Shown here piece by piece: positions 1,868 to 63,538 of a stretch of DNA of 64,000 bases. This DNA comes from Planctomycetota bacterium (GTDB lineage: Bacteria; Planctomycetota; Phycisphaerae; Sedimentisphaerales; Anaerobacaceae), in contig VRUL01000002.1 in NCBI GenBank assembly GCA_019456145.1, forward strand, positions 124,001 through 188,000. The letters are read 5' to 3'. Under the pieces are notes generated by a model, which saw only the letters and a program-made list of their open reading frames with translations, searched no databases and was not told the origin of the DNA. How positions within the stretch are numbered: position 1 is the first letter of the stretch; each line of letters opens with the position of its first letter. The translations under genes were made by a program, and so were the position numbers.

Positions 1868-4417
1868 ATGATGTTTCGCCTCGACGCGGTACACAAAGAC
1901 CGACACTTCCCTGCGGCACTTAAATCCCACACCAGCAGTCGCACCTGGAAAAAGGGTGTTTACCTCAAGGCGGCGCTCGTTCTGCTCCTGGTCGCAATCT
2001 CACCGGCCTGCGTGTGGGCGACGTCGGCCGACATAGGCGTCAAAGAGATTATTTTCTCCTCCCGCCAGCCCGGCGCAGGCGGCCACTGGTACGAAAACTT
2101 CGGATACTACGCCCATGACGAAAACAAAAAGTTATACAAAGGCAAGAGTCGTTTGTGCCGACTGAACATCGACAGCGGCAAACTCACTGTCTTACTCGAT
2201 GATCCCGACGGCTCGATTCGTGATCCCCAGGTGTACTACGACGGAACCAAAATCCTCTTCTCCTACCGCCCGGCAGGTATGGCCCATTTCCATCTCTACG
2301 AAATCAATATCGACGGCGGCGGCCTCAAGCAGCTCACCTTCGGACCCCACAATGATATTGAGCCAACTTACCTGCCCAGCGGACAAATCATGTTCTGTTC
2401 CAGCCGAGGTGATCGATGGGTTCCCTGTTGGTACAGCCAGGTCGCGATTCTGTATATCTGCGACGCCCGCGGAGCGAACATCCAGCCGGTTTCTGCGAAC
2501 ATCGAGCATGACAATACGCCCTGGCCGCTTCCGGACGGACGGGTCATCTATGAGCGCTGGGAGTACGTAGACCGCAGCCGAGTCGCATTCCACCATCTCT
2601 GGACGGCAAATCCCGATGGAACCGGCCAGATGATCTATTACGGGAACCTGCATCCTGGAACCCTGATGATTGACGCCAAGCCAATTCCCGGTAGCGACAA
2701 CGACGTGGTGGCGGTGTTTTCCCCCGAGCACGGCCGCAAGGAACATGAAGGGGCCATTACCATCGTCACGGCAAAAGCGGGCCCCGATGAGCCATCGTCA
2801 GCTAAAAGGGTGAGCAAGAAAGAAAACTTCCGCGATCCTTATCCGCTCTCCCGGGATTGTTTCCTCGTTGCCCAGGGACCCCGATTATTAACAATGAATA
2901 GACAGGGCAAAACACGCGAAATTTACCGCCTGCCCTCCGAACTAATTAAAGCAGGCGTCGAGTGCCATGAACCTCGTCCCTTGAGACCTCGACAGCGAGA
3001 GCCCGTGATACCCCCGCGGAGCAATCCGCGCAAAGCGCTCGGTCGGCTGATTCTCCAGGACGTATACGCCGGACGGAAGATGCAAGGCGTCAAAAGGGGC
3101 GAGATAAAAAAGCTCCTCGTCCTCGAAAGCCTCCCAAAACCAATCAATTACAGCGGTAAGATGCCCCCGATGAGCTTTGGCGGGACCTACACCCTGGAGC
3201 GCATACTGGGCACCGTTCCTATCGAGCCGGACGGGTCAGCATATATGGAGCTGCCCGCTTTGCGGAGCCTGTTTTTTGTCGCACTGGACCAAAACAACAA
3301 TTCCGTCAAACGCATGCACAGCTTCCTGACAATCATGCCCGGCGAAACAACCAGTTGTCTCGGTTGCCACGAACAGCGGCAAAGGGCCCCATCCTCCCCG
3401 CCCGGCGCCTCACTACAGGCACTCACCCGGCCGCCAAGTCAGCTCACCCCCCTGGTGGGCATCCCCGAAGTGTTCGATTATCCGCGCGATATTCAGCCGA
3501 TACTGGATAAATACTGCCTGACCTGCCACGATTACGACCAGCGCGCAGGCGGCGTAATACTCAGCGGCGACCACGGGCCTATCTTTTCACACAGCTACTA
3601 CACCCTTACCGCTCGACAATTGTTTTCCGACGGACGCGATCGATTGCGGACCAACCTTCCCCCACGCTCGGTGGGCACCTCGGCCAGCCCGTTGATGAAG
3701 ATGCTCGACGGCAGCCACTACGATGCCCAGCTCACGCAGCACGAACAGGACATGATCCGCTATTGGATTGAATCTGCCGCTCCGTATCCCGGCACTTATG
3801 CAGCGCTGGGCACCGGCATGATTGGCGGCTTTCCAAAGAGCGTGCTTGACAAAAGGGACCGAAAATGGCCCAGCTCAATCGCCGCCGCCGAAGCCATCCA
3901 AAGGCGCTGCACAGGCTGTCATGATAAATCCCTCCCAATGCCGAAGTATATATCCGACAACCTGGACCTCGTACTGTCAAATCCCGACTTTGACGATATC
4001 CGCATAAGGTTATCGCGACACTATATGTTCAATCTTTCACGCCCCGAAAAATCGCTGATTCTGCTGGCGCCGCTGGCAACCGAGGCCGGAGGTTATGCCC
4101 TCTGCAAACAAAGACCCGATAACGGCCGTATCGGTGAAACCGTTACCGTTTTCGCCGATACGAACGATCAGGACTATCAAAAAATCCTCGCTATGTGTCG
4201 TGATGGCAAGCGTCGGCTCAAGCAAATCAAAAGGTTCGATATGCCGGGCTTTCGTCCCACGCCGGGCTATGTGCGCGAAATGAAGCGATACGGCATCTTG
4301 CCGAACGACCTGCCCGAAGGTGCCCCCATCGACGTATATGCGACCGACCGTGCATATTGGCGCTCGCTTTGGTGGCAGCCGACGATATCAGCCGGCACTC
4401 TGCTCTCTATGCCCTAA
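1868..4417 (+). CDS. Hydrazine-synthase-alpha-like protein: WD40-type propeller plus three heme c motifs
   Basis: This 849-residue protein has a long N terminus with a membrane or signal segment at about residues 33-52, so it is exported. Residues about 57-350 show WD40/TolB-like propeller repeats (for example IRDPQVYYDGTKILFSYR, DIEPTYLPSGQIMFCSSRG). The second half carries three CxxCH heme c sites: CLGCH (497-501), CLTCH (550-554) and CTGCH (681-685). This layout is that of the family named after the alpha subunit of hydrazine synthase, which is widespread in planctomycetes that do not perform anammox. No beta/gamma hydrazine synthase genes or other anammox genes are in the window, so hydrazine synthesis is not implied; an extracytoplasmic redox role is the safer reading. 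The start is the first of two adjacent ATGs after GGAGGA. Confidence 0.8.
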   Translation: MMFRLDAVHKDRHFPAALKSHTSSRTWKKGVYLKAALVLLLVAISPACVWATSADIGVKEIIFSSRQPGAGGHWYENFGYYAHDENKKLYKGKSRLCRLNIDSGKLTVLLDDPDGSIRDPQVYYDGTKILFSYRPAGMAHFHLYEINIDGGGLKQLTFGPHNDIEPTYLPSGQIMFCSSRGDRWVPCWYSQVAILYICDARGANIQPVSANIEHDNTPWPLPDGRVIYERWEYVDRSRVAFHHLWTANPDGTGQMIYYGNLHPGTLMIDAKPIPGSDNDVVAVFSPEHGRKEHEGAITIVTAKAGPDEPSSAKRVSKKENFRDPYPLSRDCFLVAQGPRLLTMNRQGKTREIYRLPSELIKAGVECHEPRPLRPRQREPVIPPRSNPRKALGRLILQDVYAGRKMQGVKRGEIKKLLVLESLPKPINYSGKMPPMSFGGTYTLERILGTVPIEPDGSAYMELPALRSLFFVALDQNNNSVKRMHSFLTIMPGETTSCLGCHEQRQRAPSSPPGASLQALTRPPSQLTPLVGIPEVFDYPRDIQPILDKYCLTCHDYDQRAGGVILSGDHGPIFSHSYYTLTARQLFSDGRDRLRTNLPPRSVGTSASPLMKMLDGSHYDAQLTQHEQDMIRYWIESAAPYPGTYAALGTGMIGGFPKSVLDKRDRKWPSSIAAAEAIQRRCTGCHDKSLPMPKYISDNLDLVLSNPDFDDIRIRLSRHYMFNLSRPEKSLILLAPLATEAGGYALCKQRPDNGRIGETVTVFADTNDQDYQKILAMCRDGKRRLKQIKRFDMPGFRPTPGYVREMKRYGILPNDLPEGAPIDVYATDRAYWRSLWWQPTISAGTLLSMP

Positions 4418-60239: not shown

Positions 60240-60450
60240 AATTCCTGCCTCACAAAAAAATGCCAAAATATTGCGACCTAAAATTACGGCTCTCAATACC
60301 GCATTTCACGATTCTCGCCATTATACCCTCTTTTCCGCCGGGTTGCTACACCACATTTCCTGCCCCCACAGAGCCCCGACCCGTAATGGAGGGGCAACCT
60401 CACCAAAGACAAAGATTGTTAGTCTCTCCACCAAAAGCAGTTACAAAAAA

Positions 60451-60521
60451 AGCGGGCGATGGGAATCGAACCCACCTAGCCGGCTTGGAAGGCCGATGCA
60501 TTTCCACTATGCTACGCCCGC
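60451..60521 (-). tRNA. tRNA-Gly (anticodon TCC)
   Basis: On the minus strand: acceptor GCGGGCG/CGCCCGC, D arm, anticodon loop CTTCCAA on a CGGC/GCCG stem, T loop GGTTCGATTCC. CCA not encoded. An integrase gene starts 57 bp from its 5' end, so this tRNA may lie beside or within an attachment site. Confidence 0.95.
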
Positions 60522-60577
60522 TTATAAAGCAGTATATCAAAAGAGACGATATACGCAATAAAGAAAAGGAGAGAAGG

Positions 60578-61387
60578 ATGAGAAATTTAACAGCTATCGT
60601 AATAGAAGACTGGTTACATTTTGTAGAAAGGACTTATACGCAGAGAACGCATGAACATTATAAGATGATTATTAGACGTTTTTTTACAAATATACCTAAA
60701 ATCTTAAACGAAATTAGTATTGAGCATATAGAATGTTATCTCGATGAACTGCTAAAACATCACAAACGTAGAACGGCGAACAGCCACCTTACAGGAATCA
60801 AATCTTTTACTCACTGGTATAGCGATCGTTACAATATTCCTAATCCAGCGAGAGCTGTAAAGATGTTGGTTGAAGAGCCTCCGAAGCAGCGAGTGATTTC
60901 ACCAGCAGAATATAAAATCCTTTTAACTATTACTGAGGGAATTGAAAAGGCTATCGTTGAATTTTTTGGAAATACCGGATTACGTAGAGGGGAGTTCTTA
61001 GCTCTGAAATCAGAGAATGTAAGTACCGACCAAAAGTTTATCCGTGTTTTTGGTAAGGGGAGGAAGCAGCGAATCGTCCCGCTTAATAATACCTGCCGGC
61101 GAATCTTAGCTCAGTATAAAAATAATGGTGAACTTGAGTTAGTATCTCGTTATCCGTCCAAAGAAGGAATTTATTATCTTTGTAGAAAACTTTATAATAA
61201 AGCAAATCTGGAACCATTTGGGACTCACGCACTCCGCCACTACTTTGCGACCGAGATGATTCGCAGAGGTGTGAATCTCTACAAGCTCTCAAAAATTCTT
61301 GGCCATTCCAGTATAAAAATTACTGAACAGATTTATCTACATCTCGTACCGTCTGATTTATTTGGGATTACTGACGTGTTGGATTAG
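60578..61387 (+). CDS. Tyrosine recombinase / integrase (XerC/D-like)
   Basis: 269 residues from ATG 60578 (AAAGGAGAGAAGG upstream). A SAM-like N-terminal DNA-binding domain (YTQRTHEHYKMIIRRFF) precedes the catalytic domain with Arg in NTGLRRGEFLAL (~135), HALRHYF (His ~217, Arg ~220), GHSS (~242) and Tyr in EQIYLHL (~251). It is short, like XerC/D and simple phage or element integrases. A longer frame from 60260 reads through the tRNA and is rejected. The base composition turns AT-rich here. The gene next to a tRNA marks the end of an integrative element. Confidence 0.9.
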   Translation: MRNLTAIVIEDWLHFVERTYTQRTHEHYKMIIRRFFTNIPKILNEISIEHIECYLDELLKHHKRRTANSHLTGIKSFTHWYSDRYNIPNPARAVKMLVEEPPKQRVISPAEYKILLTITEGIEKAIVEFFGNTGLRRGEFLALKSENVSTDQKFIRVFGKGRKQRIVPLNNTCRRILAQYKNNGELELVSRYPSKEGIYYLCRKLYNKANLEPFGTHALRHYFATEMIRRGVNLYKLSKILGHSSIKITEQIYLHLVPSDLFGITDVLD

Positions 61388-61411: not shown

Positions 61412-61672
61412 TTAGCTGTGTGATACGTCCATCTTGTTACGAATATCACGCAGCAGCTCTACTCGCCGACGATCCTGCTCTTTAATATCATCAATCCAAT
61501 TCTTTGCCGCAAGCAGTTTGGTGATGATTTTATTGATCTGTTCATCGTTGGCTGGTTCTTCACCACCGATAATTCGGTCAGAAAGAGATCGTACCTGATT
61601 TAGACGGCTGTGACTGAGAAGAGCACCGCTAACCACAATCAGCACAAGAAAAACTATCGTCAACTCACACAT
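61412..61672 (-). CDS. Small membrane protein with coiled coil, 86 aa
   Basis: Not recognised. ATG 61672 follows AAGGATAAAAGAAT. One N-terminal membrane helix (LTIVFLVLIVVSGALLSHS) and a charged helical tail (EQINKIITKLLAAKNWIDDI, DRRRVELLRDI). Convergent with the integrase, 24 bp apart, and enclosed between the integrase 3' end and the integrase relic at 61736. Confidence 0.6.
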   Translation of the reverse strand: MCELTIVFLVLIVVSGALLSHSRLNQVRSLSDRIIGGEEPANDEQINKIITKLLAAKNWIDDIKEQDRRRVELLRDIRNKMDVSHS

Positions 61673-61735: not shown

Positions 61736-61771
61736 AGAGATTTTTTCGGAATTACTGACGTATTAGATTAA
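61736..61771 (+). pseudogene. Relic of a second integrase C terminus
   Basis: Codons read RDFFGITDVLD then TAA; the integrase at 60578 ends SDLFGITDVLD then TAG. The last eight codons, including the stop, encode the same residues with third-position changes (GGA/GGG, GTA/GTG, TTA/TTG, TAA/TAG), so this is a diverged homologue, not a recent copy. Confidence 0.55.
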
Positions 61772-61848
61772 ATTTTTCTATTGCTAAAACCAGTAGGAAA
61801 CTATAGAATACTAAAAACTGAATAAGTCCGTTGATTTGGTTGCGTTCC

Positions 61849-61979
61849 CTCAAAATCGACAAAGTTCTTTCTGCAAGAGACGCATAAAAAATCGATACCT
61901 TGTTTTTAAGGTATCGCTGTGTATCTCTTGCAGGCTTTGTCGAGCCTTGAGGAAGTACGCTAACAGCGATACCTTTTTT
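61849..61979 (+). ncRNA. Large structured RNA with mutually exclusive stems and T-tail
   Basis: Outer hairpin arms: CTCAA/TTGAG (61849/61947), TCGACAAAG/CTTTGTCGA (61856/61935), CTGCAAGAGA/TCTCTTGCAG (61871/61924). Its tip is CGATACCTT-loop-AAGGTATCG (61893-61916). Part of that tip strand, AGGTATCGCTG (61909-61919), can pair instead with CAGCGATACCT (61964-61974), which is followed by six T. Thus a leader hairpin and a terminator-like hairpin compete. The small gene at 62000 starts 20 bp later. It may be an attenuator, a riboswitch-like leader or an element-encoded regulatory RNA. Confidence 0.6.
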
Positions 61980-61999
61980 ATTATTAGGAGCAAGAAAAA

Positions 62000-62176
62000 A
62001 TGAATGAAAACGATACTGCGGAGATAATAGAAATGGCGATAATATTGCACCTGTTAATTCAACTAATTTTGTTATTTCTCTTTATCCGTATGAGCTGCGA
62101 CCTCCACGTGATCCGTAGAAAATGGGTAGACCAAGTAAGATTTGAGAATGGTAAACTTGAGAAACTAAATAATTAA
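62000..62176 (+). CDS. Small single-TM protein, 58 aa
   Basis: ATG 62000 follows TTAGGAG. Sequence begins MNENDTAEIIEMAIILHLLI, with one membrane helix (AIILHLLIQLILLFLFIRM) and a basic C-terminal tail (RRKWVDQVRFENGKLEKL). Not recognised. It directly follows the competing-stem RNA, which may control it. A type I toxin-like role is conceivable, but nothing beyond size and hydrophobicity supports it. Confidence 0.5.
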   Translation: MNENDTAEIIEMAIILHLLIQLILLFLFIRMSCDLHVIRRKWVDQVRFENGKLEKLNN

Positions 62177-62197
62177 AATTTTTTATCTACTTTTTTC

Positions 62198-62728
62198 TTG
62201 CAAATCTTGCTCCTGTCGTGTAGATTCCCAGTAGCGTTATATATATCTCATATAGACATCGATAAAGGTGAACCGAGTGATACGGTCATTAAGATTCTTC
62301 GGAAAAGGAAGTTAGAAATAGAAAGTAAAATAAAACATCTGGAAATGATTCAGGGTGTCATAAATCGAATGGCACATGACTCATTCTTATTAAAAGAATG
62401 GAGTGTTATATTGGTATCCGCCCTATTTGTCTTAGCAGCTAAAGATTCAAATATTTATTTCATTCTTTTAGCATATTTCCCCGCTCTGGCATTTTGGATT
62501 TTAGATGGATACTTCCTATGGCAAGAGAGGCTTTTCCGTAAATTGTACGACAAGGTTCGGAAAATGAATGAAGCTGATATAGATTTTTCGATGGATACTT
62601 CAGATTTTGTTGGTGATGTAGAATCTTGGTGTAAGGTCACTTTTTCAAAAACACTCCGTCTTTTCTATGGGGTAATCGTAGGCACAATTTTGATTGTGAT
62701 GGTAATAGCAATATTTTCAGTTTGTTGA
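62198..62728 (+). CDS. Multi-TM protein paired with a TIR-like gene
   Basis: Up to 176 residues. The conserved part is KHLEMIQGVINRMAHDSFLL, two adjacent membrane helices (WSVILVSALFVLAAKD; IYFILLAYFPALAFWILDGY), LWQERLFRKLYDKVRKMNEA and a third helix at the C terminus (LFYGVIVGTILIVMVIAIFS). The start is uncertain: no ATG lies in frame before residue 47, so TTG 62198 is a placeholder. I remember this family next to MTH538-type TIR genes in other genomes. The TIR-like gene begins 12 bp later, so the two are one unit; the membrane protein would be the effector. Confidence 0.6.
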   Translation: MQILLLSCRFPVALYISHIDIDKGEPSDTVIKILRKRKLEIESKIKHLEMIQGVINRMAHDSFLLKEWSVILVSALFVLAAKDSNIYFILLAYFPALAFWILDGYFLWQERLFRKLYDKVRKMNEADIDFSMDTSDFVGDVESWCKVTFSKTLRLFYGVIVGTILIVMVIAIFSVC

Positions 62729-62740
62729 AAGGAGCTAAAA

Positions 62741-63151
62741 ATGGCCAGAAGAGTATTTTTCAGTTTTCATTATGCTGATATTATGAATGCTAACATTGTC
62801 CGTATGTCGGGGGAGTTCAAGCCAACAGCGGAAACCGGATTTTACGACGCTTCCCTTTGGGAAGATGCAAAAACTAAAGGTGACACCGCTATTCAGAGAT
62901 TAATAGATAAAGGTTTTGATAACACCAGCGTAACTTGCTTCCTGCTTGGCGAGCATACTCATTCCCGAAAATGGTGCAAATACGAGCTTAAAAAAAGCAT
63001 AGCTGACGAAAAGGGTATCCTTGGCATACTTCTGCCAAATCAGTCAAAGCACGGCCCGAAATGGATTAGCAATTACGGTAAGGTTCATACATGGGATCAT
63101 GATGAATTTGCTGACTGGATTGAAAAAGCTGCAAAAGATGCAGGTAGGTAA
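62741..63151 (+). CDS. MTH538-type TIR-like domain protein (ThsB-related)
   Basis: 136 residues; ATG 62741 follows AAAGGAG. The N terminus RRVFFSFHYADIMNANIVRM is the first TIR strand with its following loop; TSVTCFLLGEHTHSRKWCKY-EL contains the Glu-bearing helix of this family, and GILGILLPNQ the next strand. Such TIR-like proteins include ThsB of Thoeris, which makes a NAD-derived signal after phage infection. No ThsA-type (SIR2-SLOG) effector is visible; the membrane protein upstream is the candidate effector. Enzymatic activity is inferred only. Confidence 0.78.
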   Translation: MARRVFFSFHYADIMNANIVRMSGEFKPTAETGFYDASLWEDAKTKGDTAIQRLIDKGFDNTSVTCFLLGEHTHSRKWCKYELKKSIADEKGILGILLPNQSKHGPKWISNYGKVHTWDHDEFADWIEKAAKDAGR

Positions 63152-63346
63152 ATTTCAGCGAGTTTCTTTTTCCGTAGCAAAAGATTCTATTTGGATTCCA
63201 GTGTTAGGATTTGCAATGCGACAGGAGTATTAAAGATCATCTCTATCTGGATGATGATAAACTCCGTGATAAATCCCGATTTTGAATGATTTGTTCATTT
63301 TATTTTTCCTTAAATTGTCTACACTTCCTATTAGTGTTATACCACC

Positions 63347-63389
63347 AATGTCACGCAGTTCGTCGTTCTGAGCGAGGCTGCGTGACATT
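63347..63389. other. 12-bp perfect stem-loop
   Basis: AATGTCACGCAG (63347-63358) pairs with CTGCGTGACATT (63378-63389) around a 19-base loop. It lies in the 390-bp stretch 63152-63538, which has a minus-strand open frame (63230-63523) without a ribosome site that I do not accept as a gene. Confidence 0.6.
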
Positions 63390-63538
63390 GCAGATTTTAC
63401 CTGTTTGTAGATATTTGTAGATATTCTGGAATTTCCTCCGTTTTCGTTTGGCACTTCATCGTCCGATAATAATACTTTAATTAGTATTGTATCGTTCTTT
63501 AACAAGTAAATCGGGAAAGTCATTTTGGGAGAAGAAAA

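Follow-up and report, generated by a model that had tools for sequence, protein, structure and literature searches.

An RNA hairpin that precedes a short membrane-protein gene and a TIR module in a planctomycete-type genome is best read as part of a structured mRNA leader of ~170 nt that acts in cis as a transcription attenuator, and we consider this reading likely. The leader belongs to an RNA family that very probably constitutes a genetic switch, the trigger of which is unidentified. As judged by comparative evidence, this RNA is able to form two predicted structures, either a long hairpin in which strand A holds strand B (fold 1) or a terminator-like helix of 9-13 bp between strands B and C that is followed by U's (fold 2). 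The same kind of evidence establishes that the leader lies upstream of protein genes on the same strand. Three features expected of an attenuator are present, in that the element lies 5' of same-strand genes, its terminator and antiterminator have a strand in common and are both conserved, and a U tract is present. An attenuator or riboswitch had been suggested by a first-pass annotation on the basis of the competing stems, and the compensatory changes described below lend support to the attenuator, with transcription itself not shown.

The window, i.e., the whole 64-kb stretch of DNA that was analyzed, is part of a 5.7-Mb genome (G000:C33), and the hairpin lies inside a tRNA-Gly integrative element (see below). 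The leader comprises the following features, given in window coordinates:

61781-61809, plus strand: sigma-70-like promoter match (TTGCTA-17-TAGAAT, 9/12), a consensus match only
61838-61966, plus strand: long leader hairpin (fold 1, the antiterminator form), homologue of the R1/R2 family (z -9.6; 105.5 bits to R2)
61856-61862, plus strand: 5' strand of helix P2 (TCGACAA), supported by pairing in 98.2% of helix cells
61893-61901, plus strand: strand A (CGATACCTT), partner of B in fold 1 (read directly; folding; three-strand changes)
61908-61920, plus strand: strand B (AAGGTATCGCTGT), common to fold 1 and the terminator (folding; covariation)
61932-61947, plus strand: hairpin Pb (AGGCTTTGTCGAGCCT), inside the terminator loop in fold 2 (constrained fold; 96.9% of cells paired in the family)
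61937-61943, plus strand: 3' strand of helix P2 (TTGTCGA), the loop region of hairpin Pb in the alternative fold (covariation)
61963-61975, plus strand: strand C (ACAGCGATACCTT), 3' arm of the terminator (geometry search; covariation; three-strand changes)
61974-61979, plus strand: six-T run after C (read directly)

The long hairpin has a predicted stability of -59.8 kcal/mol that was reached by 0/500 dinucleotide shuffles (-26.9 ± 3.4 kcal/mol), and the B..C half folded alone yields a terminator-like hairpin of -34.6 kcal/mol (z -6.2, again 0/500 shuffles). A:B makes up the tip of the long hairpin, and B:C comprises 13 contiguous pairs, after which the T tract follows. RNA folding with alternative structures was the check proposed in the first-pass annotation, and its outcome agrees with what had been noticed there: a strand placed at 61909-61919 was said to pair both upstream and downstream, and both pairings are present, B extending from 61908 to 61920. 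The downstream arm had been described as 11 bp followed by six T; the six T are correct, whereas the arm is slightly longer, at 13 bp. When the window leader is folded without constraint, the hairpin is the optimum (-63.0 kcal/mol), and forcing B:C leads to -51.4 kcal/mol, i.e., a cost of 11.6 kcal/mol. A search for the A-B-C geometry as such (a terminator stem of at least 10 bp, a T tract and an upstream competitor of at least 8 bp) returned 1 site on both strands of the window and 2 sites in 20 shuffled windows.

Relatives of the hairpin were not found by DNA search of 159 genomes of the order, and when the order genomes were searched with 4.9 kb of element sequence, the matches were almost all tRNA. 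With a covariance model derived solely from the window sequence (R1), 12 places were found at E ≤ 0.1 in 89 genomes of the family, namely the window and 11 further sites scoring up to 62 bits; these matches have a common core and an ending like GGGCACGATGTAGCGGTGCCCTTTTTTATT. A second covariance model made from 12 sequences (R2) matched 87/159 order genomes at E ≤ 0.01, including 33/66 high-quality ones, and 56/84 genera. Up to 12 copies per genome were detected, with 9 in the window's own genome, 10 in G054 and 12 in G155. The alignment behind R2 includes the window copy, which bears on its score of 105.5 bits. When the phylum was sampled evenly, R2 matches at E ≤ 0.001 were obtained in 12 of 392 genomes, four of them from the same order (the window's own included), five from one other family (f43) and three being weak-scoring single genomes. 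Additionally, an exact 19-base core pattern occurs in 31 stretches of a named sequence collection, 25 of which also match R2 at E ≤ 0.1. The records of 22 of these 25 are labelled Planctomycetota, planctomycete, Phycisphaerae, Sedimentisphaerales or Kuenenia, and the remaining three belong to metagenome bins (WWE3, Syntrophaceae and Odoribacter), perhaps mis-binned or transferred. The six stretches without an R2 match come from other phyla, as would be expected of chance matches to the pattern. In five short forms (L093, L101, L106, L110 and L094) most of the hairpin is missing and strand C and the T tract are kept; these are either natural deletions or assembly artefacts.

Conservation of both folds was assessed in an alignment of 76 matches with 69 distinct rows (A4), all 69 of which were used for covariation counts in the hairpin, the terminator and Pb. 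A set of 62 copies was obtained from A4 by removing duplicates, rows shorter than 130 nt (the five short forms and a partial copy in L103) and the misaligned L099. Standard pairs fill 94.7% of the hairpin cells, and 38 of its 42 pairs are changed on both sides, with 637 cells changed on both sides vs 192 in shuffles (0/500 shuffles). A4 was fitted to the hairpin itself, which bears on these counts; in an independent MAFFT alignment of 12 sequences, 30/47 pairs of the RNAalifold structure were changed on both sides. The terminator pairs are absent from the model that was used for aligning, and B:C is paired in 98.4% of cells, with both-side changes at 10/10 pairs (0/500 shuffles) and a drop in pairing to 34-75% when columns are slid by 1-3. 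Of the positions in B, 8 take part in both A:B and B:C, and for each of these one or more sequences carry changes in all three strands that leave both pairings intact; these concerted three-strand changes amount to 18 cells, three of them from the window copy. Compensatory changes in homologues, which the first-pass annotation had named as a check, are hence found in the hairpin, in the terminator and across all three strands. Cells count sequences and not independent events, and no tree-aware statistics were used. With this qualification, the comparative evidence demonstrates that both pairings are under selection, to the extent that aligned sequences can do so.

The family alignment also bears on two small hairpins and on helix P2. 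Pb, which belongs to the 3' arm and forms in fold 2, is paired in 96.9% of cells, 16 of which are changed on both sides. Pa, in the 5' arm, reaches at least 6 bp in 25 of 63 copies (L099 being still included here) vs 10.7 expected from a control in which the 3' segments were dealt out anew 1000 times (largest value 18 in 1000); in the window copy it is weak, with only 3 bp. The two strands of helix P2, 98.2% of whose cells are paired across the family, are the loops of Pa and Pb.

The position of the copies relative to genes is asymmetric. An SD-led ORF of at least 45 aa lies within 330 nt downstream of 48/62 copies vs 15/58 on the divergent side, and under a stricter definition (at least 100 aa and an SD score of at least 5) these numbers become 27/62 and 1/58; 14/62 copies lack any SD-led ORF in this 330-nt interval. 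Promoter-like sites (score ≥9) are present upstream of 22/62 copies vs 8.7 in shuffles, the -10 often being located 26-35 nt upstream, and an AT-rich motif near ACAATTAAATA occurs 7-18 nt before the first position of the model. A PEP-CTERM-like end motif was recognized by pattern in 15/48 downstream ORFs vs 0/15 in the control. Family matches were sought for 43 of the 48 downstream ORFs (excluded were L154, a long ORF, and four short ORFs of doubtful status) and comprised NCBIfam PEP_CTERM (10), Pfam PEP-CTERM (8), N6 methyltransferase, HSDR_N and sulfatase-modifying factor (3 each), and EcoRI methylase and DUF932 (2 each). Some copies occur in tandem: seven pairs (L151, L152, L153, L154, L155, L156 and L167) have a spacing of 221-525 nt, the first copies being mostly without an evident gene and the second mostly directly before an exported-protein gene. 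Furthermore, a 12-kb viral contig, on which terminase-like and integrase-like ORFs were recognized by eye, carries a full copy of the RNA (L179:2238-2408, 158 bits) with no SD-led ORF after it.

The viral copy and the gene-less first members of the tandem pairs would fit a stand-alone small RNA (6S-like, a sponge or a phage decoy) that has its own promoter and terminator and often lies before genes by accident. We regard this as unlikely: accident does not account for the 48/62 copies that precede genes vs 15/58 in the control, the dual conservation of A:B and B:C would be left unexplained, and up to 12 copies per genome speak against it as well. A 6S covariance model gave no match among the Rfam results for the window and its 11 relatives. 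A plain, always-on terminator or insulator, in which the long hairpin would be merely stabilizing, is in keeping with the near universality of the stem and T tract; within the last 40 nt, a T run of at least 5 is found in 51/62 copies and one of at least 4 in 56/62, leaving 11/62 without a run of at least 5. However, such a terminator could dispense with a conserved competitor, whereas strand A covaries with B at all common positions, and genes lie also downstream and not just upstream, so that we give this explanation little credence.

Which nucleic acid is selected can be inferred from mismatches. G-U oppositions exceed A-C oppositions by 268:45 in the hairpin and by 83:5 in the terminator, and because a DNA palindrome would be without such a bias, the RNA of the plus strand is inferred to be the selected form. 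R1 also matches the minus strand of the window hairpin (32.7 bits), as any near-palindrome must, and use of the minus strand is disfavored by the direction of the bias. The G-U bias, along with the conserved T tract, likewise argues against a mobile-cassette recombination site made of folded DNA, similar to the attC sites of integrons, the downstream genes of which would be captured cargo. Accessory genes do follow the copies (restriction-modification, DUF932, TIR and surface proteins), and the copies in the integrative element and viral contig, as well as those in tandem, would suit such a site. attC sites carry the core sites RYYYAAC and GTTRRRY at their hairpin ends; these were present in 0/62 copies on either strand (first 45 and last 75 nt), and, with gene starts after the hairpin and promoter-like sites before it, a recombination site appears very improbable. 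A hairpin that arose by chance, or an intergenic hairpin of a merely ordinary kind, for which other strong hairpins in the same element could be invoked, can be practically ruled out in view of the z of -9.6, a family spread over 87/159 order genomes and compensatory changes throughout.

How the attenuator could work is inferred from these structures. Transcription would start upstream of the hairpin, and A:B would form first because it is made before C, so that read-through is likely the default. In the 62 copies, fold 1 is favored over fold 2 by a median of 9.2 kcal/mol (range 0.0 to 21.1), and therefore termination would need help or kinetics. An unpaired C-U beside A:B (columns 206-207) is conserved at 87-89% and becomes paired in the terminator; this dinucleotide could provide a toehold for strand displacement, in which C would take B over from A. 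The complementary 7-nt loops of Pa and Pb may form a kissing contact in fold 2 and join as helix P2 in fold 1, and an as yet unidentified signal acting on the internal loop or on the P2/Pa/Pb region would decide which fold wins. A translated leader peptide is unlikely: SD-led leader ORFs occur in 5/62 copies, below the mean of 13.8 (sd 3.5) in shuffled leaders, and the leader-peptide candidate was dropped. More speculatively, the family may represent a so far unseen class of riboswitches belonging to one planctomycete order. It would respond to a second messenger or a different cell-wide signal and would switch surface-protein, defense and mobile-element genes together; the internal loop beside A:B and the two complementary 7-nt loops would be its sensing core, and phages and integrative elements would carry copies in order to read or soak up the same signal. 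This extension of the attenuator reading is a tentative one. If a ligand exists, it is probably a signal that is also relevant to phages and mobile elements. Surface-protein, DNA-modification and TIR-type genes would come under the same type of switch, and because the three strands covary so strictly, the mechanism lends itself to direct tests on short synthetic templates.

The leader family resembles terminator-type riboswitches and protein-dependent attenuators in its upstream position, its mutually exclusive antiterminator and intrinsic terminator with a common strand, and its covarying structure. It differs from them in having no known ligand or protein, no Rfam match and a mixed regulon (exported PEP-CTERM proteins, methyltransferases, phage-type genes and the TIR module), and in being sometimes arranged in tandem. 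The genes downstream of most metabolite riboswitches belong to a common pathway, whereas those downstream of the leader family do not, which counts against the attenuator reading. c-di-GMP (GEMM) riboswitches can be present in many copies per genome, also in tandem, before surface-protein and phage genes; the leader family is similar in copy number, tandem arrangement and downstream genes, but shows no sequence or Rfam match to GEMM and forms a long rod with complementary 7-nt strands. The competing-stem logic is also that of leader-peptide attenuators of the trp/his type, from which the family is set apart by the rarity of SD-led leader ORFs. Likewise, the RAT hairpins of BglG/SacY have internal loops and overlap the 5' strand of a terminator; the same overlap is seen here, but the leader hairpin is far longer, has outer helices P1-P3 and precedes genes unrelated to sugar uptake.

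In Rfam 15 (4227 families), the window gave two tRNAs only at gathering score, and permissive E-values brought nothing near gathering score at the hairpin or in the 11 relatives. Searches of a collection of open-access literature listed no description of such an RNA, subscription papers and the 2017 motif list not being covered. The family is apparently undescribed, combining a familiar attenuator logic with an unusually mixed regulon, and would add a large regulatory RNA family in bacteria with little-known RNA regulation. Outside this comparison stands the Rhodopirellula-1 motif of 2010, which a table (PMC2864571) assigns to Planctomycetes and Proteobacteria without an accession.

The integrative element that hosts the window copy measures ~11.4 kb, from tRNA-Gly(TCC) to a partial tRNA copy (window 60450 to 71970; C33:184450-195970). 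This 42-nt copy (95%) at C33:195928-195969, ~11.4 kb on and beyond the window, marks the other end. Genes of the element encode a tyrosine integrase, a ThsB_TIR protein, a sigma-factor-like protein and other small unknown proteins. The features around the leader are:

60450-60522, minus strand: tRNA-Gly(TCC), one end of the integrative element
60578-61387, plus strand: tyrosine integrase of the host element (PF00589)
61739-61771, plus strand: broken second copy of the integrase 3' end (DFFGITDVLD-stop), directly before the leader (direct repeat D1, 84%; translation read directly)
61986-61990, plus strand: Shine-Dalgarno-like AGGAG before the 58-aa ORF (read directly)
62000-62176, plus strand: 58-aa ORF with one predicted membrane segment (inferred from sequence), the first gene after the leader, without a confident Pfam match
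62198-62728, plus strand: 176-aa protein, a relative of phrog_19896, most of whose N-terminal ~40 residues are not common to its relatives
62741-63151, plus strand: ThsB_TIR protein (PF08937)

The two copies of the integrase 3' end, the presence of which suggests past recombination between related elements, flank an 86-aa ORF (61412-61672, minus strand). Further strong hairpins occur in the same element (window 63306-63435; L002 8711-8840 and 15315-15522) and are non-members by R2.

That the structure precedes a 58-aa membrane protein and a TIR module, as originally noticed, holds: the AGGAG, the 58-aa ORF, the 176-aa protein and the TIR protein follow in this order. Relatives of the 176-aa protein were found in 9/392 phylum genomes (the window's own counted) and in 2 viral contigs, often beside a TIR gene, and the two-gene module of phrog_19896 protein and ThsB_TIR (62198-63151) recurs in other planctomycete genomes and in a viral contig. 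In some of its relatives (L056 and L059), a second TIR-like gene was seen by eye upstream. The upstream 600 nt of 10 other 2TM/TIR loci contained no hairpin matching the strength of the window's, with nine loci judged and one (L057) masked by N; the best z upstream of these nine was -0.3 to -5.0 vs -7.7 for the window. Since none of the nine has an equally strong upstream hairpin, a leader specific to TIR modules was rejected, and the leader does not belong to the TIR module as such. A 43-nt segment at 62192-62234 has 91% identity to G066:C59:1547-1589, a site preceded by an IS3-type transposase and followed by other possible defense genes; this identity is unexplained, with no link to the hairpin.

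Other candidates were tried and dropped. A leader shared with related integrases was not supported, as strong hairpins near some of them have no common sequence; among the 23 sources searched with R1, none of the integrase-relative loci gave a match with an E-value of 0.01 or lower. Integrase core or iteron sites were likewise discarded: CGATACCTT has three exact occurrences in L002, all within the hairpin, and six with one mismatch vs 3.8 expected. A weak fstAT match beside the hairpin (E 0.2, 22.7 bits; gathering 72), which would have indicated a type I antitoxin, was taken as chance. Close to a relative of the integrase in G084, two copies of an 11-bp palindrome (GTAAACATACT) are present (L054:2860-2886 and 3973-3999), together with a half site, and this palindrome gave 5 matches vs 0.1 expected.
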